A stretch of DNA of 64,000 nucleotides, taken from assembly GCF_000244895.1 (NCBI RefSeq), contig NZ_CM001441.1, positions 3,616,226 to 3,680,225 on the forward strand. Direction: 5' to 3'. Made by a program: the position numbers and the translations under genes. This stretch comes from Desulfosporosinus youngiae DSM 17734. GTDB taxonomy: Bacteria; Bacillota; Desulfitobacteriia; Desulfitobacteriales; Desulfitobacteriaceae. Of this stretch, positions 42,729 to 52,112 are shown piece by piece (positions within the stretch are counted from its first letter, which is position 1; every line of letters starts with the position of its first letter). The notes beneath the pieces are model-generated. The model made no database searches and was not told the origin of the DNA. It worked only from the letters and a program-made list of their open reading frames with translations.

Positions 42729-44171
42729 TTATGTTATATTATATTTTTTAATCCTATAAATAAGAGACTGACGATGCATTCCCAATTGTTTGGCGGTTTT
42801 AGAGACATTCCCTTTATTCTCCACTAAAGCTTGGATAATCTCTTCTTTTTCCTTCTCAAAAATTGTTGAAAATACACCGGTACTTTCCGGCTCAGGATGT
42901 TTGTTTTTATCAAGAGACTTTTTAAGAAGATACCCACCCGTGGCAAAATTATTTCCGGAAAGCAGGTAAGCGGGTAAATGCTTCATTTTGATTTTCAGAT
43001 CGTCACCGCTAACTAAGTTCATGGCCGCTTCCAAACAATGCTTCAGCTGGCGGACATTGCCGGGCCAGGAGAAATCTAAAAAGAATTTTAAAACTTCGTC
43101 ATCCGGACCAACGATGTGTTTTTGAAAGCTCTCATTATACAGCTTGATAAAATGTTTGGTTAATAAAAGAATATCGCTTTTGCGGCTGGCCAAACTGGGG
43201 ATCATAATGTTCACCACGGCCAAACGATAAAAAAGGTCTTCCCGAATCTGCTCTTTACTGATGGCCTCCTCTGGAAAAACGTTGCTGCTGCTGATAATAC
43301 GGACATTGATCTTGATTCGCTCTTTACTGCCAAGATGTTGAATTTCTTTTTCCTCCAAAACCCGCAGTAGTTTTGACTGGGAAAAGAGGGGCATGGAATT
43401 GATTTCGTCCAAAAACACGGTACCTCCTTCAGCCTCTTCAAAAAGGCCTTTCCGTTCCACTGCCCCGGTATAAATACCCTTAGAAGTACCAAAAAGAATG
43501 CTCTCCAGCAAAGTTTCCGGAATAGCTGCGCAATTTATTGCCAGAAACGGACCATCTTTCCGCTTGCTGTTGCGATGGATACAGCGCGCAAAGAGTTCTT
43601 TCCCGCTGCCCGTTTCCCCGACGAGAAGAACTGGGGAATCGCTTCTAGCCGCCCTTATTGCCATTTCCTTGCATTCCCTGAAAACAGGGTGCTCGCCGAG
43701 GAGACGGTCTGCGCCAACAATATCCTGGCGGGATTCCGCGAGATCATCCTCCTTTGGCGAGAAAACTTTCTTTTGCAGACTGATATTTTGTTCTATAACC
43801 TCCATCAACTGAGTCACATCTTTTTGGATAGTATAGGCACCCACTTTTTCCCCTTCGAAAAAGACAGGACGGGCATTACAAATCTGATAAACCTCCCGGC
43901 CATTAACAATATAGCGGTAAGCTTTATCCACCACGGGTTTTTCCGTAGTCAATGCCATTAACATCGGGGTTTCCCCATCTATGCCATAGGCCTCCTTCAC
44001 AGTGCGGCCATAAAGCTCTTCGTTGGTATACCCATCCAATCGCTCTGCCACTTTATTAACATAAAGCATACGGCCATTAACATCACAAAAGTATATAGCT
44101 GAACCAATGATTTCTAAAAAGTCACAAAAAAAAGGATATTGATTCATGAACTCCTCAAACCTAGTCTCCAT
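42729..44171 (-). CDS. PAS-domain sigma-54-dependent activator (tandem copy 2)
   Basis: 480 residues: a PAS domain (about 12-123), an AAA+ domain (about 155-385) with Walker A GETGSGKE (185-192), Walker B FLDEINS and arginine finger region, and a C-terminal Fis-type helix-turn-helix (NVSKTAKQLGMHRQSLIYRI). It is of the RocR-like group (LFGTSKG... and LDEINSMP). The sigma-54 contact loop reads GIYTGA (232-237) instead of GAFTGA. It likely activates the promoter at 42497 in response to a ligand of the PAS domain. It is 57 bases behind a near-identical gene. Confidence 0.92.
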   Translation of the reverse strand: METRFEEFMNQYPFFCDFLEIIGSAIYFCDVNGRMLYVNKVAERLDGYTNEELYGRTVKEAYGIDGETPMLMALTTEKPVVDKAYRYIVNGREVYQICNARPVFFEGEKVGAYTIQKDVTQLMEVIEQNISLQKKVFSPKEDDLAESRQDIVGADRLLGEHPVFRECKEMAIRAARSDSPVLLVGETGSGKELFARCIHRNSKRKDGPFLAINCAAIPETLLESILFGTSKGIYTGAVERKGLFEEAEGGTVFLDEINSMPLFSQSKLLRVLEEKEIQHLGSKERIKINVRIISSSNVFPEEAISKEQIREDLFYRLAVVNIMIPSLASRKSDILLLTKHFIKLYNESFQKHIVGPDDEVLKFFLDFSWPGNVRQLKHCLEAAMNLVSGDDLKIKMKHLPAYLLSGNNFATGGYLLKKSLDKNKHPEPESTGVFSTIFEKEKEEIIQALVENKGNVSKTAKQLGMHRQSLIYRIKKYNIT

Positions 44172-44228: not shown

Positions 44229-45683
44229 CTATGTTATATTATATTTTTTAATCCTATAAATAAGAGACTGGCGATGCATTCCTAATTGTTTGGCGGTTTT
44301 GGAAACATTCCCTTTATTCTCCAGCAAAGCCTGGATAATCTCTTCTTTTTCTTTCTCAAAAATTGTTGAAAATACACCGGTACTTTCCGGCTCGGGATAT
44401 TTAAGATGTTTAGTTTCATCAACCGGCTTTTTTTGGATGTAACCACCAGTGGCAGCATTATTTCCGGAAAGCAGATAAGCGGGTAAATGCTTCATTTTGA
44501 TTTTCAGATCGTCATCGGTAACTAAGTTCATGGCCGCTTCCAAACAATGCTTCAACTGGCGGACATTACCGGGCCAGGAGAAATCCAAAAAGAATCGTAA
44601 AACTTCGTCCTCCAGGCCAATGATATGTTTTTGGAATCTCTCATTATACAGCTTAATAAAATGTTTGGTTAATAAACGAATATCGCTTTTACGGCTGGCC
44701 AAACTGGGGATCATAATGTTCACCACAGCCAAACGATAAAAAAGGTCTTCCCGAATCTGCTCTTTACTGATTGCCTCCTCCGGAAAAACGTTGCTGCTGC
44801 TGATGATACGAACATTGATCTTAATTCGCTCTTTACTGCCAAGATGTTGAATTTCTTTTTCCTCCAAAACCCGAAGCAGTTTTGACTGGGAAAAGAGAGG
44901 CATGGAATTGATTTCGTCCAAAAACAAGGTACCTCCTTCAGCCTCTTCAAAAAGACCTTTCCGTTCCACTGCCCCAGTATAAATACCCTTAGAAGTACCA
45001 AAAAGAATGCTCTCCAGCAAGGTTTCCGGAATAGCTGCGCAATTTATTGCCAGAAACGGGCCGTCTTTCCGCTTGCTGTTGCGATGGATACAGCGCGCAA
45101 AAAGTTCTTTCCCGCTGCCCGTTTCCCCGACGAGAAGAACTGGGGAATCGCTTCTAGCCGCCCTTATTGCCATTTCCTTGCATTCCCTGAAAACAGGGTG
45201 CTCTCCGAGGAGACGGTCTGCGCCAACAATATCCTGGCGGGATTCCGCGAGATCATCCTCCTTTGGCGAGAAAACTTTCTTTTGCAGACTGATATTTTGT
45301 TCTATAACTTCCATTAACTGAGTCACATCTTTTTGGATAGTATAGGCGCCCACTTTTTCCCCTTCGAAAAAGACAGGACGGGCATTACAAATCTGATAAA
45401 CCTCCCGGCCATTAACAACATAGCGAAACGCTTTATCTACCACGGGTTTTTCCGTAGTCAATGCCATTAACATCGGACTGGTTCTCTCATCTAAGCCATA
45501 GGCCTCTCCTACAGTGCGGCCATAAATTTCTTCGTTGGCATACCCATCCAGTCCCTCTGCCACTTTATTGATATAAAGCAGACGGCCATTAACATCACAA
45601 AAGTATACAGCTGAGTCAAGGATTTCTAAAAGGTCACAAAAAAAAGGATATTGATTTATGAACTCTTTGAGCCTGGTCTCCAT
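44229..45683 (-). CDS. PAS-domain sigma-54-dependent activator (tandem copy 1)
   Basis: 484 residues, the same layout as the following gene: PAS (about 12-124), AAA+ with GETGSGKE, GIYTGA loop and LFLDEINSMP, and C-terminal Fis helix-turn-helix. The AAA+ domains of the two copies are nearly identical, whereas the PAS domain and the linker before the helix-turn-helix differ more. This fits a recent duplication with change in ligand recognition. A sigma-54 promoter lies about 150 bases upstream, so the activators may control themselves. Confidence 0.92.
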   Translation of the reverse strand: METRLKEFINQYPFFCDLLEILDSAVYFCDVNGRLLYINKVAEGLDGYANEEIYGRTVGEAYGLDERTSPMLMALTTEKPVVDKAFRYVVNGREVYQICNARPVFFEGEKVGAYTIQKDVTQLMEVIEQNISLQKKVFSPKEDDLAESRQDIVGADRLLGEHPVFRECKEMAIRAARSDSPVLLVGETGSGKELFARCIHRNSKRKDGPFLAINCAAIPETLLESILFGTSKGIYTGAVERKGLFEEAEGGTLFLDEINSMPLFSQSKLLRVLEEKEIQHLGSKERIKINVRIISSSNVFPEEAISKEQIREDLFYRLAVVNIMIPSLASRKSDIRLLTKHFIKLYNERFQKHIIGLEDEVLRFFLDFSWPGNVRQLKHCLEAAMNLVTDDDLKIKMKHLPAYLLSGNNAATGGYIQKKPVDETKHLKYPEPESTGVFSTIFEKEKEEIIQALLENKGNVSKTAKQLGMHRQSLIYRIKKYNIT

Positions 45684-49188: not shown

Positions 49189-49226
49189 AATAAGCTGGAT
49201 ATTAATAACTATCCAGCTTATTTTTA
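49189..49226 (+). terminator. First terminator upstream of mgtA
   Basis: AATAAGCTGGATA and its complement around 8 bases, followed by TTTTT. It ends 20 bases before the leader ORF. It may end transcription from upstream or act as an attenuator for mgtA. Confidence 0.75.
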
Positions 49227-49245
49227 TCATTAAGGAAGTGAGACA

Positions 49246-49359
49246 ATGGACGGCGATCCCCGAAGTCCGCTAAGAGGCTTCAAACCCCAATGTGATGACA
49301 TAGACCAAGTAGTCGGCTGCGTTTTTCGCGGGCTGTTGTTCACTGTGCATTTGTACTGA
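49246..49359 (+). CDS. Leader peptide ORF upstream of mgtA (MgtL-like)
   Basis: A 37-codon ORF beginning MDGDPRSPLRGFKP, with AAGGAAGTG as a good binding site six bases before the ATG, and ending 26 bases before an intrinsic terminator. Asp and Pro alternate in the first codons. In enterobacteria the mgtA leader peptide MgtL also starts with an acidic/proline run (EPDPTP), which destabilises ribosomes at low Mg2+ and lets transcription continue into mgtA. The sequence is unrelated otherwise, so any similarity is functional convergence. Too short for standard gene calls. Confidence 0.55.
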   Translation: MDGDPRSPLRGFKPQCDDIDQVVGCVFRGLLFTVHLY

Positions 49360-49385
49360 TGGGTTAATTTGCCTGCGCATATACT

Positions 49386-49410
49386 GCCGTCTATCTGGAC
49401 GGCTTTTTTT
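49386..49410 (+). terminator. Attenuator-type terminator immediately before mgtA
   Basis: GCCGTC/GACGGC stem, 6-base loop and seven T. It lies between the leader ORF and the mgtA start with no other gene in between, so it must be read through for mgtA to be expressed from an upstream promoter. CGGCTGCG near 49314 could pair with CGCA and GCCG at 49377-49389 and weaken it. Confidence 0.8.
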
Positions 49411-49466
49411 GTTGGCTTTTTGTGTTTTCACTGGGGAATATTTCAAGAAAGAAAGGAATGATTCCA

Positions 49467-52112
49467 GTGAACTTCATGAACGGAAAAAGCCTGGGCAGGC
49501 AGATTCAAAAAAACAAGCATGACACCGAAGTAAAGCTCCACTCCTATGCTTTCCTGACGGCAGAGGAACTTTTTTCACACCTGTCTACCACACAGGCGGG
49601 TCTCACAAGTGAAGAAGCCGAAAACAGGCAGGCTGAATTTGGGAAAAACGTAATCACTGTAGGAAATAAAAATACGCTGCTGCATAGATTGAGGGAAGCA
49701 GTCGTCAACCCTTTTAACCTCATTTTGCTTCTTATTGCCATTATCACGTATTTTACGGATGTCGTCGCGTCGTCAAGACCCGACTATCTCACCGTTATCA
49801 TCATTTTATCCCTGGTCCTTTTGTCCAGCTTGGTTGCCTTCATACAGAGCCAGCGCTCCAACGCCGCCGCTGAAAAGCTGTCAAAAATGATTTCCAACAA
49901 AGCAGATGCCTGGCGGGATGGAAAGCTGACTGAAATTCCCATGGATGAGATCGTTCCCGGGGATATTGTCCGTCTTTCGGCAGGCGACATGCTCCCGGCG
50001 GACGTACGTTTTCTGACAACCAAGGACACCTTTGTCGCCCAGGCGGCTTTGACCGGCGAATCCAATCCCGTAGAGAAATTCAGCGACATACGCAACAACC
50101 AGTATGACGGACTGACGGATTTAGGAAACATCGGTTTCATGGGGTCCAATATTGTGAGCGGCAGCGCGACGGCCATGGTGCTGGCGACCGGCAACAGCAC
50201 GTATTTCGGATCAATGGCAAAATCCCTGTCCGGCGACAGGGCCAAAACCAGTTTTGAGCGCGGTGTAGATTCAGTCAGCGGCCTTCTGGTCCGAATGATG
50301 CTAGTCATGGTTCCCATCGTATTTTTGATTAACGGATTGGCTAAAAGTGACTGGGCGGGTGCGCTGCTTTTTGCCATCAGTATTGCAGTGGGGCTTACAC
50401 CGGAAATGCTGCCCGTCATTATGACCTCAACACTGGCCAAAGGCGCGGTCTCCATGTCAAAGCATAAGGTTATTGTCCGCACCCTCGGCGCAATCCAAAC
50501 CTTTGGCGAAATGGATGTGCTTTGCACCGATAAAACCGGAACGCTGACTGAGGATAAGATCGTACTGGAAAAGTACATGAACCTCCACGGCGAGGATGAT
50601 ACCCGCATACTCCGCCACGCTTACCTCAACAGCTATTTCCAAACAGGCCTCAAAAATCTCATTGACCTGGCCATTATCAACCGGGCTGTGCAGAACGGGC
50701 TGCAAACTATGCCGGCCGCTTATAACCTGGTGGATGAAATCCCCTTTGATTTTTCCCGGCGCAGGATGAGCGTGGTTTTAACGGACAAAAGCGGGAAACG
50801 GCAGCTTATTACCAAAGGCGCGGTGGAAGAGATCATCGCCATCTCCTCCTTTGTGGAAATGAGCGGACGCGTTATGCCAATGGATGAAGAAAGCAGACGC
50901 CTGGCCTTGGCAACCTACGAAAAGTACAATGCCGACGGACTGCGGATGATTGCCGTAGCGCAGAAAAATGAAGTTCCCGGCAGCGGGGCTTTTAGTGTGG
51001 CCGATGAACGGGATATGGTTTTAATCGGCTTTGTAGGCTTTCTTGACCCGCCTAAAGAGAGCGCCAGGGCAGCGATAACAGCACTCCGTGAACACGGCAT
51101 GCGAACGGTTGTACTCACCGGAGACAGCGAAGGCGTAGCCGTGAAGGTTTGCGGTAAGGTAGGTGTGAATACTTCCCGTCTGTTGACAGGCCGCGACATA
51201 GAGCAGATGGATGACGCCGCATTACTGGATGCGATAACCAGCTGCGACTTGTTTGCGAAGTTGTCGCCATCTCAAAAAGAACGGGTGGTGAGAGCTTTTC
51301 AAACGGCAGGTCATACGGTTGGCTATATGGGTGACGGCATCAACGACGCACCTCCGCTGCGCCAGGCGGATGTGGGAATTTCGGTGGACAGCGCCGTGGA
51401 TATTGCCAAAGAGACCGCCGACATCATCCTGCTGAAAAAAGATTTGATGGTGCTTGAAGAGGGCGTCATCGAAGGCCGCCGCACCTTCGGGAATATCATC
51501 AAATATATCAAGATGGCGGCAAGCGGCAATTTTGGCAACATGATCTCGGTTATTGCGGCCAGCATCTTCCTGCCCTTTTTACCAATGCTGCCGGTGCAGA
51601 TATTGACGCAAAACCTGCTGTGCGATTTATCTCAAATGGGCATACCCTTTGACAGCGTGGATAAGGAATACATCAGAAAGCCGCGCAAATGGGAAACACA
51701 GTCCATTAAGTCGTTTATGGCGTTTTTGGGGCCGCTAAGCTCCGTTTTTGATATCGTCTGCTTTGCTGTTATGTGGTGGGCTATCGGTGCCAATACGGTA
51801 GAGCTGTCGCCGTTGTTTCAATGCGGATGGTTTGTCTTCGGGACGGTATCTCAGGTGCTGGTTATCCACATGATTCGCACGGCTAAATTGCCGTTCCTGC
51901 AAAGCACGCCATCCATACCGCTTTTCTTGTCCACCTTTGTTGTAGCAGTGGTCGCGCTTGCAACCGGTTTTACAGACTTTGCAATCGGTCTTGATATGCA
52001 TCGCCTGCCGCTCGTGTTAATCCCGTGGCTGGCTATTATTCTGGCCGGATATCTTCTGTGCGTACAGCTTGCCAAAAAGGTGTATGTGCGTCGGTATGGG
52101 GAATGGATGTAA
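49467..52112 (+). CDS. mgtA: Magnesium-translocating P-type ATPase (MgtA/MgtB type)
   Basis: About 881 residues, the usual length. It has an N-terminal cation-ATPase domain, the actuator motif LTGESNPVE, the phosphorylation motif CTDKTGTLTEDK, the hinge GDGINDAPPLRQADVGISVD, and ten membrane helices including VGLTPEMLPVIM in M4. The VGLTPEMLP and FGNMISV motifs and the overall pattern match MgtA/MgtB Mg2+ importers. GTG at 49467 has AAAGGA nine bases upstream; ATG at 49476 is an alternative. It is probably induced by low Mg2+ through the leader upstream. Confidence 0.92.
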   Translation: MNFMNGKSLGRQIQKNKHDTEVKLHSYAFLTAEELFSHLSTTQAGLTSEEAENRQAEFGKNVITVGNKNTLLHRLREAVVNPFNLILLLIAIITYFTDVVASSRPDYLTVIIILSLVLLSSLVAFIQSQRSNAAAEKLSKMISNKADAWRDGKLTEIPMDEIVPGDIVRLSAGDMLPADVRFLTTKDTFVAQAALTGESNPVEKFSDIRNNQYDGLTDLGNIGFMGSNIVSGSATAMVLATGNSTYFGSMAKSLSGDRAKTSFERGVDSVSGLLVRMMLVMVPIVFLINGLAKSDWAGALLFAISIAVGLTPEMLPVIMTSTLAKGAVSMSKHKVIVRTLGAIQTFGEMDVLCTDKTGTLTEDKIVLEKYMNLHGEDDTRILRHAYLNSYFQTGLKNLIDLAIINRAVQNGLQTMPAAYNLVDEIPFDFSRRRMSVVLTDKSGKRQLITKGAVEEIIAISSFVEMSGRVMPMDEESRRLALATYEKYNADGLRMIAVAQKNEVPGSGAFSVADERDMVLIGFVGFLDPPKESARAAITALREHGMRTVVLTGDSEGVAVKVCGKVGVNTSRLLTGRDIEQMDDAALLDAITSCDLFAKLSPSQKERVVRAFQTAGHTVGYMGDGINDAPPLRQADVGISVDSAVDIAKETADIILLKKDLMVLEEGVIEGRRTFGNIIKYIKMAASGNFGNMISVIAASIFLPFLPMLPVQILTQNLLCDLSQMGIPFDSVDKEYIRKPRKWETQSIKSFMAFLGPLSSVFDIVCFAVMWWAIGANTVELSPLFQCGWFVFGTVSQVLVIHMIRTAKLPFLQSTPSIPLFLSTFVVAVVALATGFTDFAIGLDMHRLPLVLIPWLAIILAGYLLCVQLAKKVYVRRYGEWM

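Follow-up and report, generated by a model that had tools for sequence, protein, structure and literature searches.

The mgtA gene of Desulfosporosinus youngiae DSM 17734 is preceded by a short upstream open reading frame (uORF) and an intrinsic terminator. Comparison with related leaders suggests that these elements probably belong to a family of leader-peptide attenuators of Mg2+-transporter genes in Clostridia and their relatives, in which an early hold-up of the ribosome, probably at low Mg2+, would turn mgtA on. In the 64,000-nucleotide stretch analyzed here (the window), the uORF spans 49246–49359 on the plus strand (ATG to TGA, 37 codons) and encodes MDGDPRSPLRGFKPQCDDIDQVVGCVFRGLLFTVHLY. 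An extended Shine–Dalgarno (SD) sequence, aaggaagtga, is read at 49232–49241 (+) and is kept in the alignment of related leaders, A1. Codons 2 to 7 (49249–49266, +; D-G-D-P-R-S) contain the conserved core, namely, an acidic residue at codon 2 (acid-2), Pro-5, and a CGA-AGT pair at 49261–49266. The intrinsic terminator lies at 49386–49410 (+), with the stem GCCGTCTATCTGGACGGC at 49386–49403 followed by TTTTTTT, and 56 nt separate the T-run from the proposed GTG start of mgtA at 49467. The mgtA product (49467–52112, +) scored 1112 bits against TIGR01524 (cutoff, 611), which identifies it as an MgtA-type Mg2+ P-type ATPase. The elements described by the first-pass annotation, a 37-codon frame with a ribosome site and a seven-T terminator before mgtA, were thus all found in place. 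The terminator site alone is weak evidence because the scanned 1.8 kb contained four terminator-like sites against a shuffle mean of 2.1.

The best σ70-like promoter pair within 110 nt upstream scored at least 10 in 20 of 28 rows, a count made without a shuffled control, and in these 20 rows the −10 element ends 27 to 80 nt before the uORF start codon; the window's own promoter is unclear. Just 5′ of the uORF SD, at 49189–49222, the window has a 13-bp AT-rich hairpin followed by T residues, which is a candidate for a terminator-like element or for part of a promoter; similar hairpins were seen by eye in L005 and, in weaker form, in L006. Elsewhere in the window, two Moco riboswitches (Rfam RF01055; 7208–7339 and 10784–10925, both −) and a Skipping-rope RNA (RF02924; 58973–59051, +) were detected above the gathering scores. 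Two adjoining and very similar frames (42729–44171 and 44229–45683, both −), which resemble σ54-type activators by eye, probably arose by recent tandem duplication.

A uORF of the same class was present in 34 of 80 mgtA loci, and a related class (Group B) was present in 8 more; two of the 80 loci (L042 and L060) had almost no upstream DNA. The earlier proposal of a uORF with attenuator-like RNA before a Firmicute mgtA is supported, and the uORF is conserved. Within the first 31 loci (L005–L035), 26 had the leader uORF, and a search of the remaining five, L007, L008, L024, L026, and L029, found none, although their mgtA genes are close (85% and 84% identity for L007 and L008). In L007 and L008, the region upstream of mgtA has a c-di-AMP riboswitch on the opposite strand (2692–2826). 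The 80 loci included members of Lachnospiraceae, Oscillospiraceae, and Desulfitobacteriaceae, metagenome-assembled genomes (MAGs) assigned to Anaerolineaceae, Synergistaceae, Coriobacteriia, and Erysipelothrix, and others; single odd taxonomic placements are uncertain because many loci are MAGs. A search of 198 genomes of relatives, including its own, located the leader DNA in a single further genome, of the same family, and strong matches to a covariance model of the leader were confined to these two genomes in the 60 that were scanned. The host genome is a single contig of 5,660,978 bases, in which we found no second copy of the leader, the covariance model giving one match above noise. The leader and mgtA probably arrived together by transfer because the nearest mgtA proteins among the 80 loci belong to Ruminiclostridium (90%) and Kineothrix (86%), which are other clostridial lineages.

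We also examined more distant mgtA genes, and 8 of 14 upstream stretches had a candidate uORF. L113 and L114 have the CGA-AGT pair, L110 has CGC-AGC, L108 is without the Arg, and L116 to L119 have Gly/Ser-rich starts that keep acid-2. No uORF passed the filter in L107, L111, L112, L115, and L120, and only an unrelated frame was found in L109. In three further distant loci, the uORF of L121 has CGA-GAT, that of L123 has a Gly/Ser-rich start, and that of L122 (MDGKPRS) was missed by the filter and recovered by the covariance model. For L117 and L118, two uORFs with a strong SD and acid-2 (MDAGHPDN... and MDAEGSSS...) lie before one mgtA, at approximately −556 and −263.

The start of the uORF was compared over 39 rows of the window's class (the 34 loci, the window, L090, L093, L096, and L104), which hold 36 distinct starts and hence include a few near-duplicates. 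The SD is strong, and the start codon is ATG in 33 rows, GTG in 3, and TTG in 3. Codon 2 is acidic in all 39 rows, and the codon before the Arg position encodes Pro in 33 of them (CCT, 25; CCC, 4; CCA, 2; CCG, 2). At the Arg position, CGA occurs in 35 of 39 rows, so that every Arg is CGA, and the other rows have CAA (2), GGA (1), or CCA (1). The following codon is AGT in 34 of 39 rows, which again accounts for every Ser. By contrast, CGA makes up 6.1% of the Arg codons and AGT 12.1% of the Ser codons across the mgtA genes belonging to the 34 loci. The third position of the Pro codon is free, since all four Pro codons occur, whereas CGA and AGT are fixed. The Arg-Ser pair stands in frame at codon 4, 6, or 8, depending on the lineage (CGA-AGT at codons 8–9 in L075, L113, and L114). 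Conservation of the peptide start, the check on which the first-pass annotation had staked its reading, was therefore observed. The likeness to the acidic and Pro-rich start of MgtL stood only in part; acid-2 and Pro-5 are kept, whereas the alternation of acidic residues and Pro is absent, with an acidic codon 4 in 7 of 39 rows and Pro never at codon 3.

A stop codon lies within the aligned stretch in 23 of the 24 A1 rows, including the window (L121 reads on), at a single alignment column in 15 of these 23 and at columns 151 to 166 in the other 8, and the uORFs of A1 rows with a stop have 33 to 46 codons. Differences in the uORF body are distributed over the three codon positions as 16/15/11 (L006–L090), 5/3/5 (L010–L012), and 3/6/5 (L018–L021). 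Only the start of the uORF looks constrained as codons because the body changes almost evenly over the codon positions. From these features, the uORF is presumably translated. We considered a GAAGTC/GRCTTC hairpin just 3′ of Pro-5, possible in many rows, as the reason for the CGA-AGT pair; it does not explain the pair because, by eye, it is absent in L012, L013, L014, and L020, which retain CGA-AGT.

Two alternative RNA folds can be formed by the leader. The OFF fold consists of P1, which pairs the uORF start with the uORF end, and the terminator; the ON fold consists of P2, which pairs the uORF end with the region after the stop codon, and an antiterminator (AT) in the middle of the uORF. In the window, the 5′ strand of P1 (49238–49259, +) runs from the SD end to codon 5, and its partner is the uORF end (49330–49350, +), a strand common to P2. 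The 5′ strand of the AT (49304–49318, +; codons 20–25) forms a duplex of −16.2 kcal/mol with 49385–49399 (+), which is the terminator 5′ arm plus loop; the energy of this duplex and covariation support both strands. P2 has an outer helix of 49327–49333 (+) with 49371–49377 (+) and an inner helix of 49339–49345 (+) with 49357–49363 (+), the latter starting at the uORF stop codon and containing one mismatch in the window. The two folds are mutually exclusive because P1 and P2 share the uORF-end strand and the AT and terminator share the terminator 5′ arm.

Both folds were evaluated on A1, which comprises 24 rows picked for a recognizable terminator. For OFF, 84.9% of cells were paired versus 37.1 to 53.9% in slid controls, and two-sided changes occurred in 11 of 25 pairs versus 4 to 9 (0 of 500 shuffles). 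For ON, 80.1% were paired versus 27.9 to 48.7% (0 of 500 shuffles), and 40 cells were changed on both sides versus 12 to 20 (0 of 500 shuffles); pair 106–212, for example, changes from A-U to G-C in six rows. The number of ON pairs with a two-sided change, 13, was equalled by 16 of 500 shuffles and by the −1 slide, and the ON structure had been spotted by eye in part of the sequences later used to count it. RNAalifold, unaided, returned the terminator together with seven pairs forming the core of P1. Among the matches listed by the terminator script, none fell in L025, L040, L046, L052, L053, L061, or L104.

By energy, the AT duplex had a mean z of −2.2 over the 24 rows and was absent in L015 and L032; few ON pairs were retained in L014 (9 of 21) and L020 (11 of 21). 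P1 stood out from shuffles (z ≤ −2) in 17 of 23 tested A1 rows and, outside A1, in 8 of 23 leaders. Its advantage was modest in the window (z −1.2; 13 of 100 shuffles), and it did not stand out in L006, L016, L019, L021, and L023 or in the remaining 15 leaders outside A1. In the window, the enforced OFF and ON folds had energies of −50.6 and −32.2, respectively, versus a minimum free energy (MFE) of −51.7, and across the 24 rows, OFF coincided with the MFE fold in 7. The default state is not OFF in every leader, because enforcing ON gave a lower energy than enforcing OFF in L018, L021, L090, and L096 and, by about 1 kcal/mol, in L121. Truncated folds had suggested a different antiterminator, in which the uORF start (GGACGGC) pairs with the terminator 5′ arm. 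Since this pairing is lost where the arm differs (e.g., L030), the mid-uORF strand is preferred.

Around the start of mgtA itself, 49429–49439 pairs with 49461–49469 (hairpin 49429–49469, +), so that the mgtA SD falls within the loop and the GTG start becomes part of the stem. This hairpin was counted on 18 rows (17 distinct) after the A1 rows L013, L014, L015, L016, L020, and L023 had been excluded beforehand; 87.8% of cells were paired versus 22.6 to 43.0% when slid, with two-sided changes in six of nine pairs. The eight Group B loci have CGA in six cases, followed by AGT in five, two codons closer to the start, and acid-2 in one. In these leaders, a strand near the uORF start is able to pair with a segment whose alternative role is to close a hairpin beside the mgtA ribosome site. 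The inner seven pairs of this long-range pairing were 96.4% paired and hardly varied, the outer seven were 69.1% paired, and covariation was not beyond shuffles (116 of 500). The competing hairpins had modest support (covariation, 13 of 500), and the helix of the ribosome-binding-site hairpin was 70% paired over the eight loci. A possible ribosome-site hairpin was also seen by eye in L052, L053, and L061.

A pattern comprising SD, start, acid-2, CC, and CGAAG, with one mismatch allowed, matched in 10 of 392 and 9 of 394 genomes; among the matches listed, the reversed pattern had none in the former search and one in the latter. The 19 matches were 12 mgtA leaders (9 tested for mgtA, with L091, L092, and L100 being the same places as L006, L018, and L019), one leader before mgtE, two before CNNM genes, and four others without a link to a Mg2+ gene (L088, judged by eye; L089, L097, and L098, tested for mgtA alone). 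The mgtE leader (842–1003 in L106), which has its own terminator-like hairpin, precedes a gene above the TIGR00400 cutoff. The covariance model, built from mgtA leaders only, gave it 50.5 bits (E = 2.1e-8), the best score of 66 sources outside the model, and P1 is present (z −2.7). On the basis of sequence, the same leader is present before a second Mg2+-transporter family, at one mgtE locus.

The next-ranking matches to the model were L037, L035, and L025. Plain terminators score 24 to 27 bits, and of 14 window-class loci on which the model had not been built, these three alone exceeded that level; the others scored within noise or gave no score. Weak matches in G047, G023, and G027 (L133–L135) were rejected as leaders because they are plain terminators, and another weak match was found in G017. 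L099 and L102 precede proteins above the Pfam CNNM cutoff, which may export rather than import Mg2+. The model did not support these leaders (12.2 bits for L099; L102 not listed), and their membership in the family is tentative. Searches for relatives of the mgtE and CNNM leaders (18, 45, and 21 genomes), using a changed pattern that missed the L102 leader, yielded only known mgtA leaders and one further match (L127) besides the mgtE and one CNNM leader.

We propose the following working model. With no ribosome on the leader, or with a ribosome that has finished, P1 and the terminator would form and mgtA would be off. If a ribosome pauses within codons 1 to 7 (acid-2 to Pro-Arg(CGA)-Ser(AGT)), or if ribosomes are repeatedly lost there and replaced, most likely owing to low cytosolic Mg2+, the P1 5′ strand would be masked, and the central and terminal parts of the uORF would stay exposed. 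P2 and the antiterminator could then form, the latter taking up the terminator 5′ arm, and RNA polymerase would read into mgtA. A ribosome traversing the second half of the uORF would disrupt the antiterminator or P2. We infer the direction of the switch and the role of the ribosome from the anatomy, that is, from which strands a parked, moving, or absent ribosome would cover. The tie to Mg2+ as the signal comes from the identity of the regulated genes and from the MgtL and MgtQ precedents, as they appear in the portions of PMC11282234, PMC8092293, and PMC6335274 available to us.

The sensing step fits three versions, namely, destabilization by acidic residues and Pro, methylation of tRNA-Pro, and the CGA-AGT pair itself, the last of which matches the most constrained feature of the sequence. 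CGA is decoded by an inosine tRNA. It is conceivable, if only tentatively so, that ribosomes stall or are shed at low Mg2+ while decoding CGA and then AGT in the first four to nine codons. About equally tentative is a version of the model, the mechanism put forward in the first-pass annotation, in which, as for MgtL, an acidic and Pro-containing start destabilizes the ribosome at low Mg2+, so that it drops off and the antiterminator forms. The invariant acid-2 and the prevalent Pro-5, both found even where P1 is weak (L033, L053, and L061), are consistent with this version, and excerpts of PMC8092293 report that MgtQ of Salmonella (Asp-2, Pro-4, and Glu-5) depends on its acidic codons for an increase in MgtB. 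However, MgtL begins with MEPDP, whereas acid-4 is rare and Pro-3 absent here, and all but one of the Group B leaders lack acid-2; moreover, P1 would be free to form again if no new ribosome followed the one that drops off.

The version based on tRNA-Pro is less likely. It supposes that low Mg2+ reduces the TrmD-made m1G37 on tRNA-Pro; ribosomes would then stall when the Pro-5 codon occupies the A site, and the leader would adopt the ON fold. The use of all CCN codons at Pro-5 is compatible with it, since all are read by m1G37 tRNAs in Escherichia coli according to the consulted part of PMC8384417, and such a mechanism is reported for Salmonella mgtL in the accessible text of PMC6335274. However, Pro is missing at this position in 6 of the 39 rows and in all eight Group B leaders, there is one Pro codon here versus several in mgtL, and CGA is not among the codons that the same part of PMC8384417 gives as stalling upon m1G37 loss.

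It is improbable that the RNA itself senses Mg2+ or a metabolite as a new riboswitch, with the uORF as a passenger. The fixation of CGA-AGT at the nucleotide level, a uORF body that is unconstrained as protein, and two covarying folds would agree with such an RNA. Against this, a strong SD is retained with alternative start codons, the Arg-Ser pair keeps its reading frame despite three different spacings, and an in-frame stop is kept in nearly all A1 rows, mostly at one column. Furthermore, no Rfam family matched the window leader at the gathering score, matches below it being at chance level only. The M-box Mg2+ riboswitch, which we take to be RF00380, was found neither in the window nor in a scan of 31 loci, of which 30 carry mgtA and one carries mgtE, in agreement with the earlier suggestion that this Firmicute mgtA departs from M-box control. 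An attenuator that reads charged tRNA-Arg, or some other general cue of translation, instead of Mg2+ is very unlikely. The use of the rare CGA for every Arg at the conserved site would be compatible with it; against it, only one Arg codon is conserved, and the downstream genes are those of Mg2+ transporters or their relatives (MgtA, MgtE, and CNNM), not arginine genes.

Control of Mg2+ transporters through 5′ leaders is known in Firmicutes from the M-box, the usual explanation there, and Mg2+ sensing via leader translation is known from enterobacteria. The attenuator proposed here resembles MgtL of Escherichia and Salmonella mgtA in having a short uORF with a ribosome site before mgtA, an acidic codon 2, Pro-5, and alternative RNA folds involving the uORF, which are exclusive and covarying here. 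Incomplete translation of MgtL switches mgtA on, as stated in the available sections of PMC11282234 and PMC6335274. Unlike MgtL, which has 17 codons, the present uORFs are about twice as long or more; they lack the EPDP(TP) motif (acidic residues at 2 and 4; Pro at 3, 5, and 7) and contain the CGA-AGT pair. Termination also appears to differ, being Rho-dependent for MgtL and apparently intrinsic here, with a terminator that covaries in the 24 A1 rows picked for having one, and the start-to-end pairing of P1 should hold an untranslated leader off. Because EPDP is absent and termination looks intrinsic, the leader does not appear to be a member of MgtL, although it would work like MgtL and MgtQ.

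MgtQ of Salmonella mgtCBR likewise combines a strong-SD uORF with acid-2 (Asp-2) and a nearby Pro, and its stem-loop switch, which hides or frees the ribosome site of a Mg2+ transporter (according to the part of PMC8092293 consulted), is comparable to the Group B hairpins. In contrast, MgtQ is an enterobacterial uORF of 8 codons between two genes, whereas the window has a transcription terminator. Of the acidic residues that MgtQ has at codons 2 and 5, acid-2 is conserved here, with no conserved second acid. The logic of uORF, antiterminator, and terminator is that of amino-acid attenuators of the trp and ilvB type, but there is no conserved run of codons, only one conserved Arg, and no adjacent biosynthesis gene. 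Among the matches listed for open-access titles and abstracts (no preprints and few subscription papers), none described a leader peptide of a Firmicute mgtA, and the mgtE motif of Thioalkalivibrio in the portion of PMC11109978 consulted is distinct from the present leader.

Since the folds and the conserved codons have been mapped, a Mg2+-sensing event in early elongation is testable through a few codon changes. If the CGA-AGT pair is the sensor, it would be a codon-level Mg2+ sensor distinct from both acidic-peptide destabilization and TrmD, used before at least two unrelated families of Mg2+ transporters in Firmicutes. Together, these leaders would be evidence that regulation of Mg2+ uptake by the ribosome originated in, or was dispersed to, bacteria far outside enterobacteria, with exchangeable outputs, intrinsic terminators or ribosome-site hairpins, placed before different transporter genes.
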